Shown here one piece after another: positions 4,696 through 24,424 of a stretch of DNA of 64,000 bases. This stretch comes from Nocardioides panzhihuensis (GTDB taxonomy: Bacteria; Actinomycetota; Actinomycetes; Propionibacteriales; Nocardioidaceae), in assembly GCF_013408335.1 (NCBI RefSeq), contig NZ_JACBZR010000001.1, positions 3,635,501 to 3,699,500 of the forward strand, in the 5' to 3' direction. The position numbers and the translations under genes were made by a program. The first letter of the stretch is position 1, and each line of letters opens with the position of its first letter. The notes beneath the pieces were generated by a model. The model did not search any database. It was not told where the DNA came from and saw only the letters and a list, made by a program, of their open reading frames with translations.

Positions 4696-6036
4696 TCAAC
4701 GGACCAGGCACGGGCGCTTGGGGTCGAAGGTCCACCCCGACACCAGGTACTGCATGGCGACGCCGTCGTCGCGTACGCCGAGGCCGTGCTCGAGGTAGAG
4801 CTCGTGGGCGGCCGCGACCCGCTCGCGGTCGAGCCGGATCCCGAGGCCGGGGGCGGTCGGGACCTCGATGGCACCGTCGCGGATCTGCAGCGGTGACTCG
4901 GTCAGCCCCTGGCCGTCCTGCCAGATCCAGTGGGTGTCCAGCGCGGTGATCTCCCCCGGCGCCGCGGCGCCGACGTGGGTGAACATCGCCAGCGAGACGT
5001 CGAAGTGGTTGTTGGAGTGGGAGCCCCAGGTCAGTCCGAAGTCGTGGCACAGCTGGGCGACGCGGACGGAGCCGGACATGGTCCAGAAGTGCGGGTCGGC
5101 CAGCGGGATGTCGACGGCGTCGGTGCGGATCGCGTGCGCCATCTGGCGCCAGTCGGTGGCGATCATGTTGGTCGCCGTACGCAGCCCGGTGGCGCGCTTG
5201 AACTCGGCCATGATCTCGCGCCCGGAGTAGCCGCCCTCGGCGCCGCAGGGGTCCTCGGCGTACGCGAGCACGTCGTCCTTGCCCTTCAGCAGCCGGACCG
5301 CGTCGGCGAGCAGCCAGCCGCCGTTGGGGTCGAGGGTGATCCGGGCGTCGGGGAAGCGCTCGTGGAGGGCTGTCACCGCCGCGACCTCCTCCTCACCGGG
5401 GAGGACGCCGCCCTTGAGCTTGAAGTCGGTGAAGCCGTAGCGGGCCTGGGCGGCCTCGGCGAGGCGTACGACCGCTTCGGGGGTCAGTGCGACCTCTCTC
5501 CTGACGCGGTCCCAGTCGTCGGCAGCCTCGGTCTCACGCAGGTAGGGCAGGTCGGTCTTGTCGGGGTCGCCGACGTAGAAGAGGTAGCCGAGCATCGGTA
5601 CGCTGTCGCGCTGCTGACCGTCGCCGAGCAGCTCGGCGACCGGCGCACCCTGCGCCTGACCTGCGAGATCGAGGAGCGCGGACTCCAGCGCGGTGACGGC
5701 GTGGACGGTCGTACGCAGGTCGAACGTCTGGGCTCCGCGGCCGCCGGCGTCGCGGTCGGCGAACCGCTCCGCCACCTGCCGAAGCAGGCTGCGGTAGCGG
5801 GTGACGGGCTGGCCGACGAGCAGCTCGGCGGCCTCCTCGATGGTGCGTCGGATCGGCTCGCCGCCGGGGACCTCGCCGACGCCCTCGCGGCCCTCGGAGT
5901 CGGTGAGGATCGCGATGTTGCGGGTGAAGAACGGCGCGTGGGCGCCGCTGAGGTTGAGCAGCATCGAGTCGTGGCCCGCGACGGGGACGACCTCGATCTT
6001 GCCAATGGTGGGCACAGTGGTGGTGCTGGCGGTCAT
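4696..6036 (-). CDS. gudD: Glucarate dehydratase
   Basis: Dehydrates D-glucarate (and L-idarate) to 5-dehydro-4-deoxy-D-glucarate, in the cytoplasm. The 446-residue enolase-superfamily enzyme has the KLK pair (K206, K208), the metal-ligand region LDPNGG (D236, N238), and the His/Asp dyad H340 ([10 protein letters not shown]) and D314. The C-terminal [13 protein letters not shown] is characteristic of GudD. I chose the ATG at 6036, which overlaps the upstream aldehyde dehydrogenase stop by 4 bp (ATGA); a longer start at 6078 would read into that gene. Third gene of the kdgD-dehydrogenase-gudD operon, which turns glucarate into 2-oxoglutarate. Confidence 0.95.
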
Positions 6037-7526
6037 GGCAGCTGGAGCTCGCCGTCGATCCGGCGGGCGAGGTGCCACGGGTTGTCGTCGCGTACGGCCT
6101 CCGGGAGGAGCGCCGTGGGGACGTCCTGGTAGGCGACCGGACGCTGGAAGCGCTCGATCGCGAGGCTGCCGACCGAGGTGGTGCGGGAGTCTGAGGTGGC
6201 CGGGAACGGGCCGCCGTGGACCATCGCGTGGCCGACCTCGACGCCGGTGGGCCAGCCGTTGAAGAGGATCCGGCCGACCTTCAGCTCGAGCGCGGAGACG
6301 ACCTGAGCGGCGGCCTCGTCGTCGGCGTCGGTGGCGTGGACCGTCGCGGTCAGCTGGCCCTCGAGGGAGCTCAGGCTGGGCAGCAGCTCCTCGACGGAGT
6401 CGTAGCGGATCACGACGCCGGAGGCGCCGAAGATCTCGTCGGTCACGCCGTCGAGGCGGGCGGCCTCGACGATCTGGGGTGCGGGGGCGTCCTCAGTGCC
6501 TGCCTTGCCCTCGCCGACGACGGTGACGCCGTCGGTGGCGCGGAGCGTCGCGATGCCCTTCTCGTAGGCGCTGGCGATGCCGGAGGTCAGCATGGTCCCG
6601 CCGACGGCCTCGGCGGTGGCGCGGCCGGCTGCGGCCAAGAAGGCATCGCCGGCCTCGCTCTTCGGGAGGAAGAGCAGGCCGGGGTTGGTGCAGAACTGGC
6701 CGGCGCCGAGGGTGAGCGAGCCGACGTACGCCGTGGCGAGCGCGTCGACGTCACCGTCAAGAGCGCCCGAGAGGACGACGACCGGGTTGATCGAGGACAT
6801 CTCGGCGTAGACCGGGATCGGCTCGGGCCGGGCAGCGGCGGCCGCGGCGATCGCGAGCCCGCCACCACGGGAGCCGGTGAAGCCGACGGCCTTGATCCGC
6901 GGGTCGACGACCAGGGTCTGGCCGAGCTCGATGCCGGCCTTGAAGTCGGTGGAGAGGAGGTAGGAGAAGGTGCCGACGGGCAGCCCGGCATTCTGGACGG
7001 CGCGGGTGACGGCCTGGGCGACCAGGTAGCCGGTGAGCGGGTGCGCCGGGTGGCCCTTCACGACCACCGGGCAGCCCGCGGCGAGCGCCGAGGCGGTGTC
7101 GCCGCCGGCGGTCGAGAAGGCGAGCGGGAAGTTGCTGGCGCCGAAGACCGCCACCGGGCCCAGCGGGATCTGGCGCTGACGGATGTCGGCCCGCGGGAGC
7201 GGGGTCCGGTCGGGAAGCGCCGGGTCGATGCGTACGCCGAGGTGGTCACCGCGTCGCACGACGCCGGCGAACATCCGGAGCTGGCCGGTGGTGCGGCCGA
7301 CCTCGCCGCTGATCCGGCCCTCGGGCAGGTGTGACTCGGCGACGGCTGCCTCGACGATCTCGGGACGGGACGCCTCGATCTCGTCGGCGACGGCTTCGAG
7401 GAAGTCAGCGCGTGCCTCGGGGGTCGTCGCGCGGTAGCCGGCGAACGCCTCGGCTGCGGCGGTGGTGGCGGTGGTGACGTCGGGCTGCTCGGAGTCGGCT
7501 CCGGCGATGATCGAGCGGTAGCTCAT
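6033..7526 (-). CDS. 2,5-dioxovalerate (2-oxoglutarate semialdehyde) dehydrogenase, NADP-type aldehyde dehydrogenase
   Basis: Oxidises 2-oxoglutarate semialdehyde to 2-oxoglutarate, the last step of the aldarate route. The 497-residue aldehyde dehydrogenase has N132 in ASNFPLAF, the GFTGSRGGG cofactor loop, general base E242 (VYAEMSS) and nucleophile C279 (AGQFCTNPG). The FCTNPG motif and lack of a C-terminal extension fit the semialdehyde dehydrogenases found with KdgD. The gene lies between kdgD (38 bp upstream) and gudD (4-bp overlap), so the three are cotranscribed. Confidence 0.92.
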
Positions 7527-7564: not shown

Positions 7565-8479
7565 TCAGGAGATTCGGGCGACGAGGTCGCGCAGCTCGGC
7601 GACCTCGTCCTCGCGCAGGTCGGTCAGCGGCGGTCGGACCGGGCCGGCCGGTCGACCGGTCGCGGCCAGCCCACCCTTGACGATCGACACGGCATAGCCT
7701 GACGTGCGGTCACGGATGTCGAGGTACGGGATCACGAACTCGTTGAGACGACGGTAGACCTCGTCGCGGTCCTGGGCCCGCACGGCATCGTAGAACTCGA
7801 TCGCCCACTTCGGCGCGAAGTTGAACAGCGCCGAGGAGTAGGTGCTCACGCCGAGCTGGAGCAGCGGCAGCGCGAAGGTCTCGGCCGTCGGCAGACCGCC
7901 GATGTAGGTGAGCCGGTCGCCGACGCGGGCGTAGGTGCGGGTCATCTGCTCGATGTTGCCGACGCCGTCCTTGAAGCCGATCAGCGTGGGGTTGCGGTCG
8001 GCGAGCTGCGCGACGGCCTTGTCGTGCAGGACCGCGTTGGCGCGGCTGTAGACGATCACGCCGAGACCGGTGGCCTCACAGACGCGGCTGGCATGCTCGA
8101 CCAGGCCGTCCTGACCCGCCTCGGTGAGGTAGGGCGGCATCAGCAGCAGACCATCGGCACCGGCGGCCTCCGCCGCCTTCGCCTGTGCGATGGCGTTGGA
8201 GGTGCTGCCCGTCGCCGGCGCCAGGACGGGAACCGCGCCGGCCACCTCGTCGACGGCCGCGCGCACGACCCGGTCGGTCTCCTCCAAGGTCAGCGAGAAG
8301 CCCTCGCCTGTCCCGCCGGCCGCGAAGAGGCCTGCGACGGGGTACTCGGCCAGCCAGCTCAAGTGCTTGCGATAGTTCGCTTCGTCGAACTGCAGGTCAT
8401 CGGTGAAGTGAGTGACCGGGAACGAGAGAAGCCCGCTCTTGAGCTGGGCGGCCAGGTCGGTCGGGCTGTACTCGGTCAC
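7565..8479 (-). CDS. kdgD: 5-dehydro-4-deoxyglucarate dehydratase
   Basis: Dehydrates and decarboxylates 5-dehydro-4-deoxy-D-glucarate to 2-oxoglutarate semialdehyde. The 304-residue protein belongs to the dihydrodipicolinate synthase/N-acetylneuraminate lyase TIM-barrel family. Schiff-base lysine K170 lies in GFKDGVG and the catalytic tyrosine Y144 in VYSRANAV. The substrate loop [11 protein letters not shown] is KdgD-like. First gene of the operon; its start lies 58 bp downstream of a conserved promoter box (8537-8559) shared with two other sugar-acid operons in the window. Confidence 0.95.
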
Positions 8480-8536
8480 GAGTCACGTCCTTCAGGTGTT
8501 GTGAGGCAGAAGTGGTGCCCATCACGTTATGAACGT

Positions 8537-8559
8537 TCGGCGATGCCTGTCCAAGCCCG
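8537..8559 (-). promoter_or_regulatory. Sugar-acid promoter box, copy A (kdgD operon)
   Basis: On the minus strand this reads CGGGCTTGGAC, then AGG, then CATCGCCGA. It matches copy B before tctC (11699-11721) at 20 of 23 positions and copy C before the uronate operon (16629-16652) in its core GGCTTGGACNNGNATCGC. TTGGAC could double as a -35 element, with TAACGT about 19 bp further on as -10. It is probably an operator overlapping a promoter. Confidence 0.6.
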
Positions 8560-8632
8560 AATTTGAATCTCGTGATGCGTGTGGGGCATCGCGGGGGGTC
8601 TAGGCGTGAGTTCGTTGAGACAGCACGGCCCG

Positions 8633-8773
8633 GTGGTCGAGCTTGTCGAGACCCCCTCGCCCCGGTGGTCGAGCTGGTCGAGACCCCCTCGCCCCGCTGG
8701 TCGAGCTTGTCGAGATCTCTCTCGCCCCGCTGGTCGAGCCGCCGGAGCCGCTAGGCGGAGGCGTGTCGAGACC
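8633..8773. repeat. Tandem array of four GGTCGAG...TCGAGACC repeat units
   Basis: Units lie at 8635-8653 (exact consensus), 8667-8685 (one change), 8699-8717 (ends GATC) and 8731-8773, separated by CCCCTCGCCCC-type spacers with a period of about 32 bp. The last unit is a longer variant with a GCCGCCGGAGCCGCTAGGCGGAGGC stem inserted in its middle. The array lies between kdgD and the HNH gene, which are divergent. No unique spacers are present, so it is not a CRISPR. Confidence 0.8.
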
Positions 8774-9042
8774 AACACAGTTCCCTGCCGGAACGTCCCA
8801 CCCGAAGGCCGGACAGGGCCGCCGACCCGGGTGTGGCGCAGCGAAGTCTCGCTTCGGAACGGTGCTGTTCGTGGGGTGGGAGGGTGGTCCTCCGGGCCAC
8901 TTACCATCCACAGGACCGAGGCCGTTCGCTCACCGCGAAAACAGCGGTTGACCTGCGGATATAAGTAGAATCGAGCGGTCGAAAGGAGTAGAATCAGACC
9001 CACCACGACACGCCTCTGAACACACGGGAGAGGAGGGCGGCG

Positions 9043-10305
9043 ATGAGTCTCGAGCACGAGATCAACCACTGGGGCACCAACCCCGTGGACCCCATCGACG
9101 CAGAGCTCGCTGCCCTCGAATCCTCCCTCGACAACCTGCTCGCTAGGGACCCCGCCTACTGGCGCACCGGCGAAAAGAAGAACCGGCTGAAGCGCCTGGA
9201 GATCATCCAGGCCAAGCAGGCCGCGCTGAAGCTCCGGATCCTCGCTACTGCCGGTGATATCGCCGAAGAGACCGGCGCGAAAGATGCCTCGGGGTGGATG
9301 CTGACCGAGCTCCTCGTCGACAAGAAGATCGGCCGCGCTGAGGTGAAACTGGCTGCCGGTGTCGCGAAGTACGAGCTCGTCGCTGCCAGCCTCGCCGAGG
9401 GTGTCGTGTCCCAGGACAAGGCCCGGGTGATCACCAAGGCCCTCGAGGCGGTCGAAGCAGACCCGACCGCCACTGCTGATGACCTGGCCTACGCGGAGAA
9501 GCTGTTGGTCGACTACGCCACCGAGCTGACCGCCGACGACCTCAAGAACATCGGGAAACGGATCCTGGTCGAGGTCGACCCCGAACGGTTCGAGGCCGCC
9601 GAAGCCAAAGCCCTCCACCGGGAGGAAGAACACGCCCAACGGCGCACCTTCTTTCAATCCCGCGCCAACGGCGACGGCACCGTCGATATCCACGCCCGGG
9701 TCTCCTACGCGGTCGGGATGAGGCTGCGCACCGTCCTGGACTCCCTGGCTCAGCCGAGGAAGCTCTCTGCCGAGGACCGGGGCCGCAAAGCACCGTATGA
9801 CCGGCTGCTGGGCCAGGCCTTCGCTCGGATCGTTGAGACCTACGACGTCGACCAGCTCCCCCGCCATGGTGGCCACGCGACCACGGTGTTCATCACCATG
9901 GACGTCGAGGACCTCCGCAAGGATCTCGGCACCGCTGCGTTCGGGTTCGACGGCGACAAGATCACCGCCGCCGAGGCCCGCCGGATGGCCTGCAACGCCG
10001 ACCTCATCCCCGTCGTCCTCGGCACAGACTCCGAGATCCTCGACTTCGGTCGCACCACCCGCCTGGCGCCCCCGGTCCAACACCGAGCACTCCGGCTACG
10101 GGACAAGTGCTGCCAGGCTGAGGACTGTGATGCACCAGCGGCCTGGACCGAGGCCCATCATCTGAAACCGTGGTCTCAAGGCGGCGGAACCGATCTCGCG
10201 AACATGGTGTTGTTGTGTCCGAGCGATCATCGCCGGATCCACGACCCCAACTACGACTATGAACGCCTCCCGGATGGGCGGATCCGGTTCAGTCGTCGCG
10301 TCTGA
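9043..10305 (+). CDS. DUF222 and HNH endonuclease domain protein (13E12 repeat family)
   Basis: A 420-residue protein with an N-terminal helical DUF222 region (residues about 30-300) and a C-terminal HNH nuclease domain. The domain has zinc-binding cysteines in CCQAEDC, the core EAHHLKPWSQGG, and a final LLCPSDHRRIHD. This family is multicopy in mycobacteria and Nocardioides-type genomes; its biological role is not established, and mobility has been suspected. A GGAGGG ribosome site lies 7 nt before the ATG. The gene stands alone, with a repeat array upstream and two kinds of inverted repeat downstream, which may be its mobility or control sites. Confidence 0.88.
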   Translation: MSLEHEINHWGTNPVDPIDAELAALESSLDNLLARDPAYWRTGEKKNRLKRLEIIQAKQAALKLRILATAGDIAEETGAKDASGWMLTELLVDKKIGRAEVKLAAGVAKYELVAASLAEGVVSQDKARVITKALEAVEADPTATADDLAYAEKLLVDYATELTADDLKNIGKRILVEVDPERFEAAEAKALHREEEHAQRRTFFQSRANGDGTVDIHARVSYAVGMRLRTVLDSLAQPRKLSAEDRGRKAPYDRLLGQAFARIVETYDVDQLPRHGGHATTVFITMDVEDLRKDLGTAAFGFDGDKITAAEARRMACNADLIPVVLGTDSEILDFGRTTRLAPPVQHRALRLRDKCCQAEDCDAPAAWTEAHHLKPWSQGGGTDLANMVLLCPSDHRRIHDPNYDYERLPDGRIRFSRRV

Positions 10306-10335
10306 GCGCGCGCCCGGGCCTGCCCCTGTCTGCCG

Positions 10336-10365
10336 GTCCGACCTTGTGAAACATTCACAAGGTCG
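10336..10365. repeat. Perfect hairpin CCGACCTTGTGAA-ACA-TTCACAAGGTCGG
   Basis: Thirteen-bp perfect arms with a 3-nt loop, 30-40 bp after the HNH gene stop. No T-tract follows. A related imperfect copy lies at about 10421-10441. It may act as a terminator, a protein-binding site or a mobile-element end. Confidence 0.7.
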
Positions 10366-10420
10366 GGCCCTCTGTCCTAGCCGACGACCCGGCGACCTCC
10401 AGCAAGACACGGGAGCGCCC

Positions 10421-10441
10421 CCTTGCGAACGATTCACAAGG
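10421..10441. repeat. Second, imperfect copy of the CCTTG/CAAGG hairpin
   Basis: CCTTGCGAA-CGA-TTCACAAGG differs from the copy at 10336-10365 by one change in the left arm, while the right arm TTCACAAGG is identical. The outer bases of the long hairpin are not conserved. Confidence 0.55.
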
Positions 10442-10569
10442 TGTCATCGTCTAGTACAGCGCCCCGCAAACCTCCCCTGGCAGAACCGGCCGGCCCCCGA
10501 TCCCAATCCCGTACCCAACCCGAAATCCGCTGCGCCACACCCCGCCGCCGACCCGATAGCCAGCCAAAT

Positions 10570-10659
10570 TTCTCGCCGGATCACGGTGTCAAGGACCGCG
10601 ACAGCGGCCGGCGAAGCCGGCGGCCGAAGGCCGTCCTTGACTCCGGGATACGGCGAGAA
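10570..10659. repeat. 90-bp inverted repeat (REP or MITE-like)
   Basis: The outer 27 bp of each end are inverted copies with three mismatches: TTCTCGCCG...GTCAAGGAC on the left and GTCCTTGAC...CGGCGAGAA on the right. The centre, about 10598-10632, is itself rich in GCCGGC/GGCCGAAGGCC stems. No transposase is present. It could be a non-autonomous element mobilised in trans or a large transcription-end structure between the convergent HNH and LysR genes. Confidence 0.7.
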
Positions 10660-10737
10660 CACCATCCACAACGGGTCGGCGGCCCAACCCAACGAAGACG
10701 GCCAGCACACGAAGCCCTCACAGAGGGCCCACAGCCC

Positions 10738-11649
10738 CTACCGATTCATCTCGATGATCGCATCAAGCACCCGCCGTACAACCGGACTCACAGACCCCCG
10801 CGCCCAGATCGCATGCAGCTCGACCGGCCGCTCGGGGTCCTTGTCCAGGCGGGTGTCCCCGCCACCGTGCTCGATGGGACGGAAGACGACGCCTTCGACG
10901 TGCAGCGAGCTGGCCGAGACCGGGACGAAGCCGACGCCACGATCGGCGGAGACCAGGAGCATGGCGGTGAGGACCTGGTGGACTCGCTGCTCGATGCGGG
11001 GGTGGGCGTTGGCGAGGAAGCGTACGGAGAGCTCGTGGAAGTAGCGCGACTGCTGGGGGTGGTAGCCGATGACGGGCTCGCCCTCGAAGTCCTGCGGGGT
11101 CAGCGGCCGGTCCAGCTCGGCGAGCCGGTGTCCCTGCGGCAGCACGGCCATCAGGGGCTCGCGGGAGATGACTCGCGAGGAGAGCAGCTCGGTGTCGAAG
11201 GGCGGGCGGGCCAGGCCGATGTCGATCTCGCCGTGGCGGATGCCGTCTACCTGGGCGAGCGTGACCCGCTCGGAGAGTCGCACCTCGACATCCGGGACCT
11301 CCACGGTGAGGCGGCGCAGCAGGGGGCCCAGGATCGAGATGGCCGAGACCGCGGTGAAACCGAGCCGGACCACACCGGCGGCGCCCGCGTCGACCCGACG
11401 GGCCAGGTCACCGGCGCTCTCGACCAGGTTGAGCATCCGGTAGGCCTCGTCGAGGAAGGCGGCTCCGGCGCCGGTCAGGGCGACCCGGCGGTTGTCGCGC
11501 TCGAGCAGCTGCGCGCCGACCGCCTTCTCCAGCTTCTGGATCTGTCGCGACAGCGGTGGCTGGGTCATCCGGAGCCGCTCGGCCGCCCTACCGAAGTGGA
11601 GTTCCTCGGCGACCGCGACGAAAGAACGCACCTGGTCGAGGGTGATCAT
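10738..11649 (-). CDS. LysR-family transcriptional regulator
   Basis: A 303-residue LysR-type regulator. The N-terminal helix-turn-helix reads RAAERLRMTQPPLSRQIQKL (about residues 18-37), followed by a two-lobed effector domain. It is transcribed divergently from the tctCBA operon, with only 154 bp between the starts, and by the usual LysR pattern probably controls that operon in response to a sugar acid. I chose the ATG at 11649 (MITLDQVRSF) because LysR proteins begin close to the HTH; a GTG at 11667 is possible. Promoter box B at 11699-11721 lies in the shared upstream region. Confidence 0.88.
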   Translation of the reverse strand: MITLDQVRSFVAVAEELHFGRAAERLRMTQPPLSRQIQKLEKAVGAQLLERDNRRVALTGAGAAFLDEAYRMLNLVESAGDLARRVDAGAAGVVRLGFTAVSAISILGPLLRRLTVEVPDVEVRLSERVTLAQVDGIRHGEIDIGLARPPFDTELLSSRVISREPLMAVLPQGHRLAELDRPLTPQDFEGEPVIGYHPQQSRYFHELSVRFLANAHPRIEQRVHQVLTAMLLVSADRGVGFVPVSASSLHVEGVVFRPIEHGGGDTRLDKDPERPVELHAIWARGSVSPVVRRVLDAIIEMNR

Positions 11650-11698
11650 TTCGCCAGGGTAGACCACGATGCGTCAGGTGGAACACTCAATGCCGAAA

Positions 11699-11721
11699 CG
11701 GGCTTGGACCGGTATCGCTGA
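11699..11721 (+). promoter_or_regulatory. Sugar-acid promoter box, copy B (tctCBA operon)
   Basis: CGGGCTTGGAC, CGG, TATCGCTGA. It matches box A before kdgD at 20 of 23 positions. As a promoter it would read TTGGAC, 18 bp, then TAGTGT (about 11728-11733). It lies between the divergent LysR and tctC genes, so the LysR protein is one candidate ligand. Confidence 0.6.
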
Positions 11722-11803
11722 GACTCTTAGTGTCGGTGATCACACGACGTCGGGCCACCCCATTGCCACAAACCCGCCCGACCACCTGGATCTAGGAGCA
11801 ACG

Positions 11804-12799
11804 ATGCGCACGACCAACCACCTTCTCGCCGCGACTGCCGGCGTCGCGGCCCTGGCCCTCTCCGCCTGTGGTGTCTCGAACACGACCGGTGGTAGCGGTG
11901 ACGGCGAGGAGTATCCCGCCGGCAACGTCGAGATGTACGTCGGTGCGTCGGCCGGTGGGTCCAGCGACCTGATCAGCCGGGCCGTCTCCAAGGGCCTCTC
12001 CGACGAGCTCGGTGCCTCCTTCCCGGTGATCAACCAGGAAGGCGCCAACGGCGCGCTCGCCGCCAACAAGGTGGCGAAGGCCAAGGCCGACGGTCAGACC
12101 ATCGCCATCCAGAACGCCTCCCTCTTCGCCATCACGCCGCTGGCGGTCAGCGAGGACGAGGCCACGGATCTCGCCGACTTCGACGTGGTCCAGGGCGTCT
12201 CCCGCGACGACTACGTCATGGTCACCGGCCCGAAGAGCGGCTTCAAGACGCTCGACGACATCAAGGCCGCGAAAAAGAAGGTCACCTACGGCACCACCGG
12301 TGTCGGCACCGGCGCGCAGCTCTCCTGCGGCCTGACCTACGCCTCCGCCGACGTCGAGGCCGAGGCCGTGCCCTTCGACGGTGGCGCCCCGGCACTGACC
12401 GCGGTGCTCGGCAACCAGGTCGACACCGCCTGCATCCAGGTCGGCGAGGCGATCGAGAACATCGAGTCCGGCAAGCTGACCCCGCTCAGCGTCTTCGGCC
12501 CCGAGCGGGTCGAGTACCTTCCTGAGGTCCCGACCGCCAAGGAGCAGGGCCTCGACGTCGAGGTCGCGCAGTACCGCTTCATGACCGTCCCGAAGGGCAC
12601 CCCGGACAACGTCAAGGACGCCATCGCCGAGGCGATGCAGGCGACGTTCAAGACCGAGGAGTACCAGGCCTTCAACAAGCAGAACAGCCTCACCCCGATG
12701 GAGATCTCCGGCGACGAGGTGGTGACCCAGCTCGAGGAGGACAAGAAGCGGTTCGCCGACCTGGTCGAGCAGTACGGTCTCGACCTCGGCCAGGGCTGA
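11804..12799 (+). CDS. tctC: Tripartite tricarboxylate transporter substrate-binding lipoprotein (TctC)
   Basis: Binds the substrate outside the cell and passes it to TctAB. The 331-residue protein has a signal peptide ending in the lipobox LSAC (LALSACGVSN) and a Bug/TctC-type fold; typical segments are YVGASAGGSSDLISRAV near the start of the mature chain and YGTTGVGTGAQLSCG. I chose the ATG at 11804, preceded by AGGAG at 11795-11799; longer in-frame starts would include the promoter box. The family takes up tricarboxylates and other organic acids. Linkage to a glucarate-dehydratase-like enzyme suggests an aldarate substrate, which is inference. Confidence 0.9.
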   Translation: MRTTNHLLAATAGVAALALSACGVSNTTGGSGDGEEYPAGNVEMYVGASAGGSSDLISRAVSKGLSDELGASFPVINQEGANGALAANKVAKAKADGQTIAIQNASLFAITPLAVSEDEATDLADFDVVQGVSRDDYVMVTGPKSGFKTLDDIKAAKKKVTYGTTGVGTGAQLSCGLTYASADVEAEAVPFDGGAPALTAVLGNQVDTACIQVGEAIENIESGKLTPLSVFGPERVEYLPEVPTAKEQGLDVEVAQYRFMTVPKGTPDNVKDAIAEAMQATFKTEEYQAFNKQNSLTPMEISGDEVVTQLEEDKKRFADLVEQYGLDLGQG

Positions 12800-12840
12800 G
12801 CAGCACCCGGCACGGCGGAAAACACGACGAAGGCATGAGA

Positions 12841-13371
12841 ATGAGCGACGAACGTACCCCAGCTCCTGACCAGGACATCCTGGCCGAGATCCAGGCCGAG
12901 GTGGCCCACGACCTGGAGGAGGAGCGACCTCCTGCGGGCGGACCGGCCTACCAGGTGATCGGTGCGCTCGTCGCTCTCGTCGTCGGCATCGGCGGCGCGG
13001 TCCTCTCCTACGGCTACGGCATGGGATCGCTGCGCCAGCCAGGCCCCGGCATGTGGCCGTTCGTGGTCAGCATCGCGATCGCCCTGATGGCGGCGGCGCT
13101 GCTCGTCGTCGGCCGCGGGCTGAGCGACAGCGAGAAGTTCACCCGCTCCAGCGTGCTTCCCGCGGTCGGCCTGGTCACCTTCATCGTGCTGGCCATGCTG
13201 ATGCCCGTGATCGGCTTCGAGATCCCGTCGCTGCTGCTGTGCGTCGTCTGGCTGAGGTTCCTCGGCGGCGAGACCTGGCGCAGCACGATCATCACCTCGG
13301 TCCTCACGGTCGCCGCGTTCTACTTCCTGTTCCTCTATGGGCTGCGCATCCCGCTGCCCCACCTGTTCTGA
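12841..13371 (+). CDS. tctB: Tripartite tricarboxylate transporter small membrane subunit (TctB)
   Basis: A 176-residue membrane protein with an acidic cytoplasmic N-terminus and four predicted transmembrane segments, matching the DUF1468/TctB small subunit. The segment GSLRQPGPGMWPFVVSI (about residues 60-76) is characteristic. It pairs with TctA in the inner membrane. I prefer the ATG at 12841 because GAAGG at 12829-12833 is 7 nt upstream; the in-frame ATG at 12835 would leave almost no spacing. Located 41 bp after tctC and 12 bp before tctA. Confidence 0.88.
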   Translation: MSDERTPAPDQDILAEIQAEVAHDLEEERPPAGGPAYQVIGALVALVVGIGGAVLSYGYGMGSLRQPGPGMWPFVVSIAIALMAAALLVVGRGLSDSEKFTRSSVLPAVGLVTFIVLAMLMPVIGFEIPSLLLCVVWLRFLGGETWRSTIITSVLTVAAFYFLFLYGLRIPLPHLF

Positions 13372-13383
13372 GCGGAGCCCCCA

Positions 13384-14922
13384 GTGGACGTCAATGCATT
13401 CCTCGACGGCTTCGCGCTCGTCACCGAACCGCAGAACCTGCTCTACTGCCTGGTCGGCGTGCTCATCGGCATGCTCATCGGCGTACTCCCCGGCCTCGGG
13501 CCGGCGGCCACGATCGCCATCCTGCTGCCGATCACGTACAGCATCGACCCGGTCTCCGCGATCATCATGCTGGCCGGCATCTACTACGGCGCCCAGTACG
13601 GCGGCACGATCACCTCGGTCCTGCTCCGGCTGCCGGGCGAGGCCTCGTCGGTCGTCACCGTCTTCGACGGCTTCGCCCTCGCCAAGCAGGGCAAGGCCGG
13701 GACGGCCCTCGGCATCGCCGCGATCGGCTCCTTCGTCGGCGCGACCGTCTCGATCCTCGGCCTGACCCTGGTGGCTCCGCTGATCGCCGGCTGGGCGCTC
13801 AACTTCGGTGACCCGGAGTACGCCGCACTTGCCCTGCTGGGCGTCCTGCTGGTCGCCACCATCGGCAACGGCAACAAGCTCAAGGCGATGATCGCCGCCG
13901 CGCTCGGCCTGCTGCTGGCCACTGTCGGCCGCGACAGCTTCAGCGGCGCCGAGCGTTTCACCTTCGGCAGCCTGCAGCTGACCGAGGGCATCGACTTCGT
14001 GGTCGTCGCGATGGGTCTCTTCGGTGTCGGCGAGATCCTCTACAACCTCGAGGAGCGGCACGGGAAGCCCCACGTCCCCGCCGTCGTCACCAACATCTGG
14101 CCCTCCCGCAAGGACATCAAGCAGTCCTCCGGCGCCATCGGCCGCGGCTCGCTGATCGGCTTCGTCCTGGGCGTGCTGCCCGGTGGCGGCGCCGTGATGT
14201 CCTCCCTTGCCGCGTACGCCACGGAGAAGCGCATCTCCAAGCACCCCGAGCGCTTCGGCCGTGGCGCCATCGAGGGCGTCGCGGCCCCCGAGACCGCCAA
14301 CAATGCTGCCGCGACCTCCTCGTTCATCCCGCTGCTGACCCTCGGCATCCCGGCCAACGCCTCGATGGCGATGCTCTTCGGTGCCCTGCTGATCCTCGGC
14401 ATCTCGCCCGGTCCGCAGCTGGTCGAGGAGCGCCCGGACCTGTTCTGGGGCGTCATCAACTCGATGTACATCGGCAACCTGATCCTGCTGATCCTGAGCA
14501 TCCCGCTGGTGGGCATCTTCGTCCGCATCCTGCGGGTGCGCCCGGCGATCCTGGCCCCGATCACCGCGCTCATCACGATCCTGGGCGTCTACACGATCAA
14601 CAACTCCACCTTCGACATCTTCGTGATGATCGTCTTCGGCCTGATCGGCTACCTGATGAAGAAGGTCGGCTTCGAGCCCGGCCCGATGGTGCTCGCCTTC
14701 GTCCTCGGCTCGATCGTGGAGGACGGCTTCCGCCGCTCGATGCTGATCTTCGACGGCGACCCGACCGGCTTCTTCACCCGGCCGATCTCGGGCACCATCC
14801 TGGCGGCCTTCGTCCTGGTCGCGCTCTGGCCGGTCGCGAAGGCGATCCTGACCCGGCGCAAGGCCGCCACCGCCGCCCCGGCTCCGTCCGAGCGGGACGA
14901 CGTCGACACCCCGACCCGCTGA
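13384..14922 (+). CDS. tctA: Tripartite tricarboxylate transporter large permease (TctA)
   Basis: The 512-residue pore subunit with about 11-12 transmembrane segments. It carries the conserved GLGPAATIAILLPITY motif (about residues 38-53), YYGAQYGGTITS, and the mirrored second-half motifs GVLPGGGAVMSS and GIPANASMAMLFGALLILGI. The start is GTG at 13384 with GGAG upstream. Uptake through this family depends on a cation gradient. Last transport gene before the universal stress protein gene, in the same operon. Confidence 0.93.
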   Translation: MDVNAFLDGFALVTEPQNLLYCLVGVLIGMLIGVLPGLGPAATIAILLPITYSIDPVSAIIMLAGIYYGAQYGGTITSVLLRLPGEASSVVTVFDGFALAKQGKAGTALGIAAIGSFVGATVSILGLTLVAPLIAGWALNFGDPEYAALALLGVLLVATIGNGNKLKAMIAAALGLLLATVGRDSFSGAERFTFGSLQLTEGIDFVVVAMGLFGVGEILYNLEERHGKPHVPAVVTNIWPSRKDIKQSSGAIGRGSLIGFVLGVLPGGGAVMSSLAAYATEKRISKHPERFGRGAIEGVAAPETANNAAATSSFIPLLTLGIPANASMAMLFGALLILGISPGPQLVEERPDLFWGVINSMYIGNLILLILSIPLVGIFVRILRVRPAILAPITALITILGVYTINNSTFDIFVMIVFGLIGYLMKKVGFEPGPMVLAFVLGSIVEDGFRRSMLIFDGDPTGFFTRPISGTILAAFVLVALWPVAKAILTRRKAATAAPAPSERDDVDTPTR

Positions 14923-14934
14923 GAGAGGCACACC

Positions 14935-15330
14935 ATGACCATCCTGATCGGCTACGTACCCACCCCGGTAGGTGAGGCAGCACTCGAGGCCGGCCTGGCC
15001 GAGGCGGCCGCACGCGGCGACGACGTCGTGATCGTCAACAGCCCGCGCCGCGGCGCCCCCGTCGATGCCCGTCTCGTCGACGACGACGCTGATGCGGAGC
15101 TCGTCGCCCGCGCCGCCGAGGCCGGGGTGAGCGCCCGCGTCGACCACACCACGCACGGCGCCGACATCGTGGAGACCTTCGACGCGCTGGTCGCCTCGAC
15201 CGGCGCCCGGCTGATCGTGATCGGCCTGCGCCGCCGCTCCCCGGTCGGCAAGGCCCTGATGGGCAGCGACGCCCAGCGCATCCTGCTCGACGCCGGCGTA
15301 CCGGTCCTCGCGGTCAAGCCCACCGCATGA
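14935..15330 (+). CDS. Universal stress protein, UspA family
   Basis: A 131-residue single UspA domain. The C-terminal ATP-binding signature is visible as VIGLRRRSPVGKALMGSDAQRILLDAGVPVLAVK-type sequence, with the G-2X-G-9X-G(S) pattern reduced to GLRRRS...GKALMGS. Small Usp genes often sit inside TRAP or TTT transporter operons, where they are thought to modulate uptake. Here the gene lies 12 bp after tctA, and its stop overlaps the next start by 4 bp. Confidence 0.85.
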   Translation: MTILIGYVPTPVGEAALEAGLAEAAARGDDVVIVNSPRRGAPVDARLVDDDADAELVARAAEAGVSARVDHTTHGADIVETFDALVASTGARLIVIGLRRRSPVGKALMGSDAQRILLDAGVPVLAVKPTA

Positions 15331-16586
15331 GTCGTATCTCCAAGGTCGTCATCACGCCGGTCGCGTTCGCCGACCCGCCGCTGCTCAACGTGGTCGGCGT
15401 CCACCAGCCGTGGGCGCTGCGCGCGATCGTCGAGCTCCACACCGACACCGGCCTGCTCGGTCTCGGGGAGACGTACGCCGACGAGACCCACCTCGCCCGG
15501 CTCGACGCCGTCGCCCAGGCGCTCCCCGGCTCCGATCCCTACGACACCAACGCCCTGCGTCGGCTCGTCGTCGACGTGCTCGGCAAGGAGACCGGCGGCG
15601 CCGGTGCCTCCTTCGGAGGCATGCTCGACGTCTCCTCCGCGGTCGACACCGTCTACTCCCCCTTCGAGGTCGCCTGCCTCGACCTGGTCGCCCGCGAGGC
15701 CGGTCGCCCGGTGAGCGATCTGCTCGGCGGCGCGGTGCGCGACCGCGTGCCGTTCAGCGGCTACCTCTTCTACAAGTGGGCCGGCCACCCCGGCGAGCCC
15801 GACGACGAGTGGGGCGAGGCCCTGAGTCCCGACCAGATCGTCGCCCAGGCACGACGGATGGTCGACGGCTGGGGCTTCGGCTCGCTCAAGCTCAAGGGTG
15901 GGGTTTTCGATCCCGACCAGGAGTGCGCCGCGATCGAGGCGCTGCGCGACGCCTTCCCGAACCTCCCGCTGCGCCTGGATCCCAACGGCGCCTGGACCCC
16001 GGAGACGTCGGTGAGGGTCGCTGAGCGGCTGGCGGGCGTCGTGGAGTATCTCGAGGACCCCACCCCCGGCATCGAGGGCATGGCACAGGTCGCGGCCCGC
16101 ACCGACGTACCCCTGGCCACCAACATGTGCGTGATCGCCTTCGAGCACCTCAGACCGGCGATCGCGGCCGACGCGGTCCAGATCGTGCTCTCCGACCACC
16201 ATCTGTGGGGTGGGCTACGCCGCTCGGCGTTGCTGGGCGGCATCACCGACACCTTCGGGATGGGCCTGTCGATGCACAGCAACTCCCATCTCGGCGTCTC
16301 GCTGGCCGCGATGGTCCAGCTGGCCGCCGCGACCCCCAACCTGACCTACGCCTGCGACACCCACTACCCATGGAAGACCCAGGACGTCGTACGCTCCGGC
16401 GTGCTTGACTTCGACGACGGCGCGATCACGGTGCCGACCGGCCCGGGGCTGGGTGTGGAGCTGGACCGTGACCTGCTCGGCGAGCTGCACGAGCAGTACC
16501 TCGGCTGCGGCGTACGCCGCCGGGAGGACACCGTCTACATGCGTTCCATCGAGCCAGGATTCACCCCGAACACGTCACGCTGGTGA
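15327..16586 (+). CDS. Glucarate dehydratase-like enolase-superfamily enzyme
   Basis: A 419-residue member of the glucarate-dehydratase branch, clearly distinct from GudD at 4696-6036. It keeps the catalytic elements: K188/K190 in SLKLKGGV, D218/N220 in RLDPNG, H317 in SMHSNSHLG, and D290 as dyad partner. It therefore probably abstracts the alpha proton of a sugar diacid and dehydrates it. It ends in a tail (about residues 395-419) unlike the GudD C-terminus. Translationally coupled to the Usp gene by ATGA. The substrate may be glucarate, idarate or another diacid imported by TctCBA; the product should feed KdgD if it is a 5-keto-4-deoxy diacid. Confidence 0.82.
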   Translation: MSRISKVVITPVAFADPPLLNVVGVHQPWALRAIVELHTDTGLLGLGETYADETHLARLDAVAQALPGSDPYDTNALRRLVVDVLGKETGGAGASFGGMLDVSSAVDTVYSPFEVACLDLVAREAGRPVSDLLGGAVRDRVPFSGYLFYKWAGHPGEPDDEWGEALSPDQIVAQARRMVDGWGFGSLKLKGGVFDPDQECAAIEALRDAFPNLPLRLDPNGAWTPETSVRVAERLAGVVEYLEDPTPGIEGMAQVAARTDVPLATNMCVIAFEHLRPAIAADAVQIVLSDHHLWGGLRRSALLGGITDTFGMGLSMHSNSHLGVSLAAMVQLAAATPNLTYACDTHYPWKTQDVVRSGVLDFDDGAITVPTGPGLGVELDRDLLGELHEQYLGCGVRRREDTVYMRSIEPGFTPNTSRW

Positions 16587-16596
16587 CCCCCGGGTG

Positions 16597-16617
16597 ACGA
16601 TACCTTCACAGTATCGT
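16597..16617. promoter_or_regulatory. Operator-like inverted repeat ACGATAC-N7-GTATCGT
   Basis: A perfect 7-bp inverted repeat with spacer CTTCACA, in the 138-bp gap between the glucarate-dehydratase-like gene and the uronate/TRAP operon. It lies immediately upstream of promoter box C and is AT-rich against its background, so it is a good candidate for a regulator site controlling 16725-21729. Confidence 0.55.
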
Positions 16618-16628
16618 CTAATGCGATA

Positions 16629-16652
16629 TGTGGCTTGGACATGAATCGCCAA
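16629..16652 (+). promoter_or_regulatory. Sugar-acid promoter box, copy C (uronate/TRAP operon)
   Basis: GGCTTGGAC, ATGA, ATCGCC, sharing the core GGCTTGGACNNGNATCGC with boxes A and B. A GCGAT at 16623 and ATCGC at 16645 also form a loose inverted repeat around it. It lies about 75 bp before the GTG start at 16725. Confidence 0.5.
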
Positions 16653-16724
16653 TCCTGACAGTCTCCTGTGACCAGGGCCACAAGTGGGCCCGGTCACAGA
16701 ACGACGAGCCAGGAGCAACCACCG

Positions 16725-17933
16725 GTGACACAGATCGATGCAGGCGAGACCGAGGCGATACCGCCGGTTCCGGTCGTCGGTTACGCCTATCCCTGGGACG
16801 TAGTCGGCGATCCCACCTTCGCAGCTCGCGCCCGGGCCCTCGGCGTCTCCAGGGTCGCCCTCGCCGCCGCCTACCACACCACCCGCGCCGCGACCCCGCT
16901 CCACCCCGAGCACCGGATCGTCGAGGCCCGCAGCGCGGCGCTCTACCGCCCGGTGCGCGCCGAGGCGTGGGACGGCGCCCGGCTGGTGCCGCCCGCGGCG
17001 ACCTGGGTCGCCACGGAGGACCCCTACGGCGAGGCGACCGCCATCCTGACCGACGCCGGGTTCGAGGTCGCCGCCTGGATCGTGCTGACCCACTCCAGCC
17101 GCCTCGGCGAGGCCAACCCCGACCTCGCGGTCGTCAACTGCTGGGGCGAGCCCTACCCCTACGCCCTGTGCGCCCGCCACGAGGACGTCCGCCGCTACGC
17201 GGAGACCCTGGCCGCCGAGGCAGTCCGGGACACTCCCACCTCCACGGTCATCCTGGAGGCGTGCGGTCAGCTCGGCTTCGGCCACGGCGGACACCACGAG
17301 AAGACCGACGGTGCCTACGACGCCGCGACCCAGCAGCTGCTCTCGATCTGCTGTTGCGCCGGCTGCCGTGAGGACTGGGCAGGCCGTGGGCTGGACGCCG
17401 ACGCGACCGTCGCGGCGCTGCGTGCCGCGACCGGCGCGGACGCCGCCGACGCGACAGTGGACGCCGAGGCCCTGGACACGATCCTCGCCTCCCGCCACGC
17501 CGCTGCCGACGAGCTCCGCCACCGCGTCATCGCGGCCGTACGCGAAGCCGCCCCCGATGTCGTCGAGGTCGCCCTGCACGCCCAGCCCGACCCCTGGGCC
17601 ACCGGCGCCAACCCGGGCCTGACCCCGACCGCCGCCGACGACGTCGACGTCGTCATCGCCGCCTGCTGGCCGACCACCGAGGCCTCGGTGCAGACCGCGC
17701 GCCGGCTGGCCGAGGCCGTCGACGGTAAGGCGGTCGCCGCTGCGTACGTCACCGTTCTCCCGCCCACCACCGAGGACACCTTCGGTGGACATGTGCGGGC
17801 ACTGGTCGATGCCGGGATCGACCAGATCCACCTCTACCACCTCGGTCTGGCAGGCGCGGACAGGCAGCACCTGCTCGCCGAGGCGACCGAGGTCCCCCAC
17901 CACCGCCGCGACGAGGACGGACTTTCGGAATGA
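16725..17933 (+). CDS. Unrecognised conserved-looking protein in the uronate operon
   Basis: A 402-residue Ala-rich, probably cytoplasmic protein that I do not assign to a family. There is no signal peptide or membrane segment. The alternation of short hydrophobic strands and helices suggests a TIM-barrel-like enzyme; segments such as VNCWGEPYPYALCARHEDV, EACGQLGFGHGGHHEK and ICCCAGC carry clustered Cys and His that could bind a metal. GTG at 16725 has AGGAG 9 nt upstream and avoids a long unstructured N-terminus. It is the first gene of the TRAP/uronate-dehydrogenase operon and overlaps dctQ by 4 bp. A sugar-acid or oligouronide role is plausible from context only. Confidence 0.6.
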   Translation: MTQIDAGETEAIPPVPVVGYAYPWDVVGDPTFAARARALGVSRVALAAAYHTTRAATPLHPEHRIVEARSAALYRPVRAEAWDGARLVPPAATWVATEDPYGEATAILTDAGFEVAAWIVLTHSSRLGEANPDLAVVNCWGEPYPYALCARHEDVRRYAETLAAEAVRDTPTSTVILEACGQLGFGHGGHHEKTDGAYDAATQQLLSICCCAGCREDWAGRGLDADATVAALRAATGADAADATVDAEALDTILASRHAAADELRHRVIAAVREAAPDVVEVALHAQPDPWATGANPGLTPTAADDVDVVIAACWPTTEASVQTARRLAEAVDGKAVAAAYVTVLPPTTEDTFGGHVRALVDAGIDQIHLYHLGLAGADRQHLLAEATEVPHHRRDEDGLSE

Positions 17934-18445
17934 ACGCACACAACGAGAACGGAACCTTCAGGCGCACCTGGCGCGCTGTCGACACGGTCTTCGAGATCTT
18001 CAGCATCCTGTGCCTGATCGCCACGCTGCTGATCGTGCTCTGGCAGGTGTTCAGCCGAGAACTGCTGAGCAACTCCCCCAGCTGGAGCGAGGAGAGCGCC
18101 CGCATCCTGCTGGTCTGGATCGGCTTCCTCGGCGCCACGATCGGCTTCCGCGAGGGCGCCCACATCGCGGTGACCTTCCTGGTGGACAGGTTCCCGGCGA
18201 CGCTCCAGGCGGTGATCGACCGTGTCGTGCAGGGGCTGCTGCTGGCGTTCGGGCTCTTCCTGATCGTCCAGGGCAGCCAGTTCGTCGTCGACGCCCAGGC
18301 GGCGACCCTGCCCGGCACCGGCCTCCCCCGCAGCGTCCTCTACATCATGATGCCGGTCGCCGGCGCCATGCTCATCCTCTACACCGTCCTCCAGGCCTTC
18401 GGCATCAGCACCCAGCGGTACGCCGAGTCCGCCGAGATCGACTGA
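17930..18445 (+). CDS. dctQ: TRAP transporter small permease (DctQ type)
   Basis: A 171-residue protein with four transmembrane helices, the DctQ fold. Typical features are the WQVFSRELL and ARILLVWIGFLGATIGFREGAHIAV segments around helices 2-3. Together with DctM it forms the membrane part of a sodium-driven TRAP transporter for organic acids. It overlaps the upstream stop by 4 bp (ATGA) and is followed 17 bp later by dctM. Confidence 0.92.
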   Translation: MNAHNENGTFRRTWRAVDTVFEIFSILCLIATLLIVLWQVFSRELLSNSPSWSEESARILLVWIGFLGATIGFREGAHIAVTFLVDRFPATLQAVIDRVVQGLLLAFGLFLIVQGSQFVVDAQAATLPGTGLPRSVLYIMMPVAGAMLILYTVLQAFGISTQRYAESAEID

Positions 18446-18462
18446 GCCGGGAGTCCCTCACA

Positions 18463-19758
18463 ATGCCTATCGACCCGCTTGCCATCACGATCCTTCTGGG
18501 CAGCTTCGCCGTCCTGATCCTGCTCCGCATCCCGGTGGCCCTCGCCCTCGCCCTCGCCGCCATCTTCGAAGCCCTCTACATCGGCCTGCCGCTGACCATC
18601 GTGGGCCAGCGGATGGTCGCCGGCCTCGACACCTTCGCGCTGCTCGCCATCCCGTTCTTCATCCTCGGCGGCGAGATCATGGGCGCCGGCGGCATCTCCC
18701 GCCGCCTGATCGCACTGGCCGGCCTGCTCGTCGGCTGGGTGCGCGGCGGTCTCGGGATGGTCAACATCGGCGCCAGCACCTTCTTCGGGGCCCTGTCCGG
18801 CTCCTCGGTCGCGGACGTCTCCGCGATCGGCTCGGTGACCATCCCGATGATGAAGAAGCGCGGCTACGACACCGACTACGCGGTCGCGGTCACCGTCTCG
18901 GGCGCCACCCAGGCGGTCATGATCCCGCCGAGCCACAACCTGATCATCTACTCCATGGCCGCGGGCGGCGTCTCCATCGGCGCCCTGTTCACCGCCGGCA
19001 TCATCCCGGGCATCCTCCTAGGCGCATCGCTGATGACCCTGGCGTACATCCTGGCGGTCAAGCGGGGCTACCCGAAGGAGGAACTGGTCCCGCTCAAGGA
19101 CATCCCCAAGATCGTCAGCGACGGGCTGCTCAGCCTGCTGATGCCGGTGATCATCCTGGGCGGCATCCTCAGCGGCCTCTTCACCGCAACCGAGTCGGCG
19201 GCGATCGCCTGCCTGTACGCCTTCATCCTGACCTTCTTCGTCTACCGCGACATTCCGCTCAAGGCGATGGTCCCGATCCTGCAGAGCGCCCTGCGCACCC
19301 TCGGCGTGGTGCTGTTCATCATCGCGGCGGCGGGCGCCTTCGGCTACTTCCTGGCCTTCCTGCAGGTGCCGGCGCTGGCCACCGACGCACTGCTCGGCGT
19401 CTCCGACAACGTCGTCGTGGTGCTGCTGCTGATCAACCTGCTCCTGCTCGCGCTCGGCGCGATCATGGACATGGCGCCACTGATCGTGATCATGACGCCG
19501 ATCCTGCTGCCGGTCGCCACCGGGCTCGGCATGGACCCGGTCCAGTTCGGGATCATGCTGGTCCTCAACCTGGCCATCGGCCTGATCACACCGCCGGTCG
19601 GCAACGTCCTCTTCGTCGGCTGCGCGATCGGACGGACGACCATCGAGAACGTCATCAAGACGGTCTGCCTCTTCCTGATCCCGATGCTCATCGTCCTGAT
19701 GCTGATCACGTACGTCCCGTTCTTCTCCCTCGCCCTTCCCGATGCACTCGGTCAATGA
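18463..19758 (+). CDS. dctM: TRAP transporter large permease (DctM type)
   Basis: A 431-residue protein with about 12 transmembrane segments. Hallmarks are IPFFILGGEIMGAGGIS (about residues 62-78), GSSVADVSAIGSVTIPMM (about 110-127), and LITPPVGNVLFVGCAIG near the C-terminus. It is the transport channel working with DctQ and the binding protein DctP. ATG at 18463 is preceded by GGGAG; upstream in-frame starts would run through dctQ. Confidence 0.94.
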   Translation: MPIDPLAITILLGSFAVLILLRIPVALALALAAIFEALYIGLPLTIVGQRMVAGLDTFALLAIPFFILGGEIMGAGGISRRLIALAGLLVGWVRGGLGMVNIGASTFFGALSGSSVADVSAIGSVTIPMMKKRGYDTDYAVAVTVSGATQAVMIPPSHNLIIYSMAAGGVSIGALFTAGIIPGILLGASLMTLAYILAVKRGYPKEELVPLKDIPKIVSDGLLSLLMPVIILGGILSGLFTATESAAIACLYAFILTFFVYRDIPLKAMVPILQSALRTLGVVLFIIAAAGAFGYFLAFLQVPALATDALLGVSDNVVVVLLLINLLLLALGAIMDMAPLIVIMTPILLPVATGLGMDPVQFGIMLVLNLAIGLITPPVGNVLFVGCAIGRTTIENVIKTVCLFLIPMLIVLMLITYVPFFSLALPDALGQ

Positions 19759-19777
19759 GTCGGGTCAATGAGCTCGG
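19746..19777 (+). repeat. Short direct repeats CGGTCAATGAG around the dctM stop
   Basis: The sequence around the dctM stop repeats CGGTCAATGAG, GGGTCAATGAG and CGGTCAAGTAG in about 30 bp, each carrying an in-frame stop. It looks like local slippage; no function is apparent. Confidence 0.5.
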
Positions 19778-19807
19778 TCAAGTAGTCACCATCGAAAGGA
19801 ACCAACC

Positions 19808-20860: not shown

Positions 20861-20892
20861 TCCCGCATCTCCCCACCCAACCGGAAGGAACC

Positions 20893-23740: not shown

Positions 23741-24424
23741 TCACTGACGCAGGCGCCGGCGGGTGCTGCCCAGATGCACCCGCATCGCGGCCCGGGCCGT
23801 GTCGGCGTCACCGGTGAGGATCGCCGTGGCGATGTTGTCGTGCTCGCGCTGCACCCGCTCGACGTGGACTGTGTCGCTGGGCGAGTAGGCGTCACCGAGG
23901 CGGGTGCGCGGCAGCATGATCATCATCGGACCCAGCGAGTCCATCAGGTCGAGGTAGAAGCGGTTGCCGGTCGCGGCGGCGACCGCGCGGTGGAAGGCGA
24001 AGTCGGCCTCCACCGCCCCGTCGGGTCCCGCGGTCGCCAGGGCGGAGAGCGCCTCCTCGATCGAGCGCGCGCTCTGCTCGTCGTGGTGGGCGGCTGCCAG
24101 GGCGGCCGCCTCGCACTCCACCCCGAGCCGGAAGTCGACCATGTCGAGCACGTCGTGCTGCGTACGGATCGCAGAGGACTCCAGCGCGAACGGCGACGGC
24201 GCCGGCACCGCCAGCACGAAGGACCCGCGCCCCTGGAAGGTCTCGACCAGGCCCTCCGCGCGCAGGCGGGTGACCGCCTCGCGCGCCACCGTCCGCGACA
24301 CCCCGTACGCCGCGACCAGGTCGGACTCCGAGGGCAGCTTCGCCCCCGGAGGGAGGTCTCCGGCCAGGATCTGGTCCTTGATCCCGGAGACGACGCGGTC
24401 GGCGAGCCCCGCACTAACAGTCAT
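23741..24424 (-). CDS. GntR-family regulator, FadR/FCD subfamily
   Basis: A 227-residue repressor with an N-terminal winged helix (LPPGAKLPSESDLVAAYGVSR, about residues 20-40) and a helical C-terminal FCD ligand domain with conserved Asp/His positions for metal and carboxylate binding. FCD regulators commonly sense sugar acids. The ATG overlaps the galrD stop by 4 bp, so it is cotranscribed with the galactarate dehydratase. The palindrome TTGTATTACAA at 25570-25580 in front of that operon is the likely operator, implying autoregulation. Confidence 0.9.
   Translation of the reverse strand: MTVSAGLADRVVSGIKDQILAGDLPPGAKLPSESDLVAAYGVSRTVAREAVTRLRAEGLVETFQGRGSFVLAVPAPSPFALESSAIRTQHDVLDMVDFRLGVECEAAALAAAHHDEQSARSIEEALSALATAGPDGAVEADFAFHRAVAAATGNRFYLDLMDSLGPMMIMLPRTRLGDAYSPSDTVHVERVQREHDNIATAILTGDADTARAAMRVHLGSTRRRLRQ

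Follow-up and report, generated by a model that had tools for sequence, protein, structure and literature searches.

BenM and CatM, which act at benA and catB of Acinetobacter, bind as a tetramer to sites 1 and 3 of their promoters without effector and to sites 1 and 2 with effector (PMC6628147). Site 1 in these promoters is a T-N11-A palindrome, ATAC-N7-GTAT, from which sites 2 and 3 differ slightly, and the -35 element lies just downstream of site 2, reading TTGAAC in benA (PMC6628147). Sugar-acid genes have been described under other regulators. In Halomonas, the GguR regulon includes a galactarate/glucarate operon that also encodes a TctABC transporter, and in one strain Udh and a hexuronate transporter are encoded by a second operon (PMC5507952); in E. 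coli, CdaR regulates galactarate and glucarate genes (PMC7652997). Here we analyze a 64,000-nucleotide stretch of the Nocardioides panzhihuensis genome (contig NZ_JACBZR010000001.1, positions 3,635,501 to 3,699,500), hereafter the window, in which the promoters of three aldarate and uronate operons share a composite element, one of them facing a LysR-type regulator gene at 10738-11649.

The locus is best read as a LysR-type operator-promoter for an aldarate/uronate regulon, with a gene set similar to that described under GguR in Halomonas (PMC5507952). It differs from BenM/CatM in that site 1 reads GATRC-N7-GYATC, the -35 element is TTGGAC and the genes concern aldarates and uronates rather than benzoate; a shift between sites would be shared, although here it is a proposal only. 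GguR is assigned to the GntR family (PMC5507952), whereas the proposed regulator here is of the LysR type and falls outside that family; a reading of GguR as a LysR-type regulator was dropped for this reason. One published GguR site (PMC8376909), compared by eye, is unlike the motif described here. CdaR is a PucR-family protein and unrelated to our LysR. Among the open-licence papers listed by our searches, none mentioned this LysR regulon or its motif in title or abstract.

Judging from the sequence and its conservation, we consider it highly probable that the LysR-type protein encoded at 10738-11649 controls the aldarate/uronate regulon, and that an 18-bp box common to the three promoters forms the downstream half of an operator-promoter of the LysR type. 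The elements are the following.

10738..11649, minus strand: LysR-type regulator (PF00126, PF03466), proposed regulator of the three operons, divergent from tctC
8574..8590, minus strand: site 1 of copy A in the kdgD promoter, GATGC-N7-GCATC, T-N11-A; part of a match with 0 mismatches to GATGC-N7-GCATC-N16-GGCTTGGAC
8540..8557, minus strand: box copy A, putative right arm of site 2, with -35 TTGGAC at 8549-8554 and half-site GCATC at 8542-8546
8524..8529, minus strand: candidate -10 of kdgD from the sequence, TAACGT, spacer 19; the profile match ends here
11668..11684, plus strand: site 1 of copy B, GATGC-N7-GGAAC, in which T-N11-A is intact and the right arm is degenerate
11701..11718, plus strand: box copy B, with -35 TTGGAC at 11704-11709
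11728..11733, plus strand: candidate -10 of tctC from the sequence, TAGTGT, spacer 18
16599..16615, plus strand: site 1 of copy C, GATAC-N7-GTATC
16632..16649, plus strand: box copy C, with -35 TTGGAC at 16635-16640
16659..16664, plus strand: candidate -10 of the uronate/TRAP operon from the sequence, CAGTCT, spacer 18; the weakest of the three

Alignment of the three promoters places a T-N11-A palindrome (GATRC-N7-GYATC) exactly 16 nt upstream of every box copy. The 17-bp palindromes read GATGCCCCACACGCATC in copy A, GATGCGTCAGGTGGAAC in copy B and GATACCTTCACAGTATC in copy C; only 18 bp separate that of copy B from the start codon of lysR, and several relatives have GATGC-N7-GGATC at its position. 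With the transcription start assumed 7 nt after the predicted -10, all three palindromes centre at about -64 to -65, a region where high-affinity LysR sites are often located (PMC4730206). A second left arm, NATNC, lies 21 bp beyond the first and pairs, again with 5-7-5 geometry, with GGCTT at the beginning of the box. Columns 23, 24 and 26 of the element, which the search had left open, are A, T and C in 58 of 58 unique sites of the genus. A further right arm, GCATC/GTATC, occurs 32 bp past the first, inside the -35/-10 spacer, and the partner arms of both the second left arm and the spacer right arm are degenerate. At the locus of one relative (L041), whose downstream protein is 60% identical, the flanks largely differ by eye and GATGC-N7-GCATC-N16-GGCTTGGAC is intact. 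Site 1, the box and the -35/-10 elements together have what we read as the anatomy of a LysR-type operator-promoter. On this proposed reading, the 18 bp would be so constant because site 2, the -35 element and the spacer half-site overlap there.

The initial annotation had described this element by its downstream part. Its 18-bp box, GGCTTGGACNNGNATCGC, is indeed present in exact copies upstream of kdgD (8540-8557, minus strand), tctC (11701-11718, plus strand) and the uronate/TRAP operon (16632-16649, plus strand), with copies A and B identical at 20 of 23 positions over the intervals it had compared, but the upstream palindrome had been missed. The regulon and the promoter class with a common -35 region, between which it had left the choice, are probably one thing, as TTGGAC inside the box is the likely -35 element. 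Its suggestion of a regulon under LysR 10738-11649 is supported by the fixed-spacing T-N11-A palindrome, by co-occurrence of the site with the LysR orthologue and by LysR homologues near sites in other genomes.

Across the whole genome (6,307,769 bases), GGCTTGGACNNGNATCGC has 3 exact matches, all inside the window, and no exact box precedes unrelated genes. One further match has 1 mismatch and 19 have 2 mismatches; the total of 23 with up to two mismatches is below the 32 obtained with a reversed-pattern control, so that only the exact copies stand out. All 20 inexact matches fall within open reading frames (ORFs) of at least 230 aa; in a genome of 70% GC, frames of this length say little about coding. 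Within the window, 7 matches were found with up to 3 mismatches, against 4.35 expected from shuffling. The rarity of the box alone proves little because its pattern was drawn up from these very copies, and conservation is the real test.

When the box was loosened to GGCTTGGACNNNNATCGC, 147 genomes of the genus held 21 matches, as against 1 in the control. Seventeen of the 21, namely the 3 window sites and 14 of 18 other loci, precede orthologues of the three operons; the remaining 4 of the 18 loci had nothing homologous to the window genes compared. The element is thus conserved before orthologous operons in relatives. The composite, with up to 3 mismatches, occurs at 79 places in the genus genomes, against 5 in the control; column counts and co-occurrence are based on the 65 places with at most 2 mismatches (58 unique), the 14 with 3 mismatches being excluded. 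In the N. panzhihuensis genome itself a search with GATGC-N7-GCATC-N16-GGCTTGGAC and up to 3 mismatches gave 7 matches, against 2 in the control, and the window sites are the best with 0, 2 and 2 mismatches. We also built a profile from 39 sites outside the genus, after excluding Nocardioides sites, coding-looking or odd sites, sites cut by a locus end and near-duplicates (44 left) and dropping 5 more by hand. Among the 150 of 1009 first-look candidates that were scored with it, copies A, C and B rank first (E 2.3e-10, 1.3e-6 and 1.4e-6), followed by a fourth match at E 1.3e-5 and the next at E 0.14.

Presence of the site follows that of the regulator. An orthologue of LysR 10738-11649 (E up to 1e-60) is present in 29 of the 147 genomes, and the composite with at most 2 mismatches occurs in 27 of these 29 as against 2 of the 118 without orthologue (Fisher test, 7e-25). 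The two LysR-positive genomes without such a site are G133, which has two 3-mismatch sites beside a LysR gene lying between kdgD and tctC, and G049, in which the LysR match is only partial. In the two LysR-less genomes with such a site, G021 (L222) and G068 (L224), kdgD is fragmented beside the site, a picture that suggests ongoing loss of the regulon; a sequencing error is also possible. Six more LysR-less genomes carry a composite place with 3 mismatches, and the loci of 6 of these 8 were inspected (all but those of G115 and G117, which have 3 mismatches). In the window, lysR and tctC diverge around copy B, and the same arrangement is seen in 6 of 6 tctC loci of relatives compared. The protein has both LysR domains (PF00126, 4.6e-22; PF03466, 3.6e-34; scanned from the longer ORF 10738-11667), and among solved chains an unnamed LysR, 7w06 (2.4e-40), scores ahead of BenM (1.5e-29) and CatM (8.7e-28).

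An open scan of a public genome collection with GATNC-N7-GNATC-N16-GGCTTGGAC, a pattern drawn from the window, found at least 120 stretches holding at least 121 sites. The counts in this paragraph hold among the matches listed, with gene-match thresholds set by us. An aldarate or uronate gene comes first downstream of 92 of 121 sites: kdgD at 60, tctC at 12, dctP at 10, the glucarate dehydratase gene at 8, and the galactarate dehydratase gene and an orthologue of the unnamed gene of operon C at 1 each. A LysR homologue lies within 1.2 kb of 71 of the 121 sites and anywhere in the fetched stretch at 75; 13 adjoin a divergent LysR gene, and many of the kdgD sites come after a LysR gene that runs in the same direction. 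Positions that the pattern leaves open are also kept among the 108 unique sites, with AT at columns 23-24 in 95, ATC at columns 47-49 in 69, the GCATC/GTATC arm 32 bp past the first in 63, and TA at spacer 18 or 19 in 89. In 69 LysR proteins from these loci the DNA-binding part is 60-98% identical to that of 10738-11649, while identity in the effector part falls to 30%; two other LysR proteins encoded in the window reach 39% and 29% in the DNA-binding part. Among the LysR proteins of these loci the stretch MTQPPLSRQIQ is nearly invariant, which by itself counts for little because strings like it are widespread in this LysR branch.

From this arrangement we infer binding, activation rather than repression, a ligand and sliding of a dimer, as follows. 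A tetramer of LysR 10738-11649 would hold site 1 (GATRC-N7-GYATC, at about -64) at all three promoters. Its second dimer could occupy site 2 (NATNC-N7-GGCTT, 21 bp on), touching the -35 element TTGGAC, or alternatively a site ending in the GNATC half-site within the -35/-10 spacer, 32 bp on. Without inducer, the tetramer would sit on the outer pair and block the polymerase; with an aldarate- or uronate-derived ligand, the second dimer would move to site 2 and transcription would be activated. The position of the further arms, two and three helical turns from site 1, would be compatible with the BenM/CatM scheme.

The half-site GNATC between -35 and -10, where binding would block the polymerase, also suits a different view of the same LysR, as mainly a repressor relieved by ligand, without activation from sites 1 and 2. 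A site 1 at -64, combined with an 18-19 nt spacer and a non-consensus -35 element, would be better suited to an activator-dependent promoter, and we regard a mainly repressing role as unlikely.

Several observations weigh against control by LysR 10738-11649 through this operator. The right arm of site 1 is degenerate in copy B, and the -10 of copy C is poor. Because the partner arms are degenerate, conservation of site 2 and of the spacer half-site could reflect the needs of a sigma factor or of DNA bending. Among the matches listed in the open scan, 29 of 121 sites are without an assigned gene (these include locus-end sites and look-alikes without the second arm), and 23 of the 92 assigned sites, including all 10 dctP sites, are without a LysR homologue in the fetched stretch; the sites are not independent counts, as Bradyrhizobium is prominent in the sample. 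Upstream of another LysR gene of the genome (L265), a site ties with copy B on the 42-nt core (33.5 against 33.7), and TTGGAC pointing away from the gene occurs upstream of 9 of the 27 LysR genes in this genome. Other LysR proteins might therefore act at the same sites.

The L265 site falls behind on the full profile, with 14.5 bits against 30.5 for copy B. Five of the 27 LysR genes, 10738-11649 included, have an upstream composite-core score above 11, where the best of 400 random sequences reached -6.5 and 60 shuffles of each upstream region a maximum of 10.1; the lowest two of the five scores (11.4 and 11.1) are near this overall maximum but clearly exceed what shuffling their own regions gave (1.8 and -15.6). 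Four composite matches in the genome have 3 mismatches, 3 of them just upstream of other LysR genes and pointing away, and two 3-mismatch matches in LysR-less relatives (L220, L230) likewise stand just upstream of LysR genes and point away. Of 179 permuted hexamers, none reaches 9 upstream of the 27 genes (mean 1.3, largest 6). In another genome, G014, TTGGAC precedes 4 of 24 LysR genes and is equalled or bettered by 9 of 179 permuted hexamers, so that the effect is not convincing there (24 of 26 matches were used, 2 below the family cut-off being excluded, and coordinates were guessed for one contig-end locus). LysR genes with TTGGAC 40-85 nt upstream of the helix-turn-helix and pointing away are found at L256, L257, L259, L262, L265, L269, L273 and L275, and several of these eight have a T-N11-A-like box before TTGGAC by eye. 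TTGGAC is therefore not specific to the regulon and is partly a general feature of LysR promoters, at least in this genome; specificity would come from the site 1 and site 2 arms together with ATCGC.

Related LysR proteins may thus see similar DNA, four other LysR genes having a scoring composite core upstream, and the GntR gene at 23741-24424 adjoins a galactarate dehydratase gene; either could be put forward as the main regulator of the sites. The presence of sites nevertheless follows the orthologue of LysR 10738-11649, sites in other genera are often near its homologues, and operators of GntR-FCD proteins are as a rule short palindromes, unlike this layout, which makes such a regulator very improbable. 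We give hardly any credence to a pure promoter class, in which the box would be a -35 and spacer element for a particular sigma factor with no dedicated regulator: in 89 of the 108 unique sites among the matches listed, TA comes 18-19 nt behind TTGGAC, which also lies upstream of other LysR genes, but a sigma factor leaves the fixed-spacing palindrome and the LysR link (27/29 against 2/118) unexplained and would be expected at more promoters than the 3 with exact boxes. An AraC-type or MerR-type site, an idea prompted by the length and the long spacer, was dropped on the palindrome and the LysR co-occurrence. A resemblance to sigma-54 promoters in the GG/GC doublets was set aside by eye, the spacing being one base short.

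More tentatively, and with considerable doubt, we suggest that an operator-promoter with fixed-spacing site 1, site 2, -35 element and spacer half-site has persisted at aldarate genes in Actinobacteria, Alphaproteobacteria and at least one Xanthomonas, and that a related core (T-N11-A, with TTGGAC about 20 nt on) marks the upstream regions of other LysR genes of the same genome. If this were true, TTGGAC would be read by LysR itself as well as serving as -35, and would constitute a conserved activation-site motif; such a motif had not been deduced for LysR proteins as of 2016, according to PMC4730206.

The three sites of the initial annotation hold as a set, to which a likely fourth member outside the window has to be added. 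This composite site (G000:C1:3700157-3700225; L247, L251) lies 657 bp past the window end at position 64000, before a second kdgD that is 62.7% identical to the first (TIGR03249, 389 bits, cut-off 373.95) and is followed by a D-isomer 2-hydroxyacid dehydrogenase gene. It reads GATGTTGGAC at the position of GGCTTGGAC, which is why the earlier box pattern misses it. A blastx search (E up to 1e-5) found no homologue of LysR 10738-11649 in the 16.5 kb of L251 around it, and we can only guess that it is under the same regulator as the other three. Near the window end, the fourth profile match inside the window (63096-63127) reads TTGGAC-N19-TAGTGT and precedes an MFS transporter gene (PF07690) that is cut by the window edge. 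It resembles the right half of the element; with a profile E of 0.12 and without site 1, it was not counted as a regulon member.

The genes under the three sites are as follows.

7565..8479, minus strand: operon A, kdgD, 5-dehydro-4-deoxyglucarate dehydratase (TIGR03249, 395.2 bits, cut-off 373.95)
6033..7526, minus strand: operon A, aldehyde dehydrogenase (PF00171)
4696..6078, minus strand: operon A, glucarate dehydratase-like enolase (TIGR03247, 800.9 bits, just under the cut-off of 828.7)
11804..16586, plus strand: operon B, tctC, tctB, tctA, universal stress protein and enolase-superfamily protein (PF03401, PF07331, PF01970, PF00582, PF13378)
16725..21729, plus strand: operon C, unnamed protein, TRAP DctQ, DctM and DctP, and NAD-dependent epimerase

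By context, the aldehyde dehydrogenase is probably a 2-oxoglutarate semialdehyde dehydrogenase, its score against NF042993 being 87.9 bits, far below the cut-off of 770, and the epimerase of operon C is probably a uronate dehydrogenase. For the unnamed protein at the head of operon C, the GTG at 16725 was taken as the start of a frame open from 16668; the ORF 16668-17933 matched no Pfam and no NCBIfam model at 1e-5, and is accompanied by dctQ of the TRAP transporter in 6 of 6 loci of relatives that hold it. A DUF222/HNH endonuclease gene (9043-10305) separates kdgD from lysR. It is also present in some close relatives (L040, L050-L052) and looks inserted, because kdgD adjoins lysR in others (L209). 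The intergenic region between kdgD and this gene contains, at 8630-8775, repeats of a unit like ggtggtcgagcttgtcgagaccccctcgcccc (by eye).

Promoters that had only been known to look alike now make up a proposed regulon that can be tested and has a named candidate regulator. The sugar acids concerned come from pectin and are also made as platform chemicals, and the LysR is a candidate sensor for glucarate, galactarate or uronates. The layout, kept over great distances, gives an unusually clear view of where the parts of a LysR tetramer may sit relative to the -35 and -10 elements, a placement on which debate continues for this very large bacterial regulator family.

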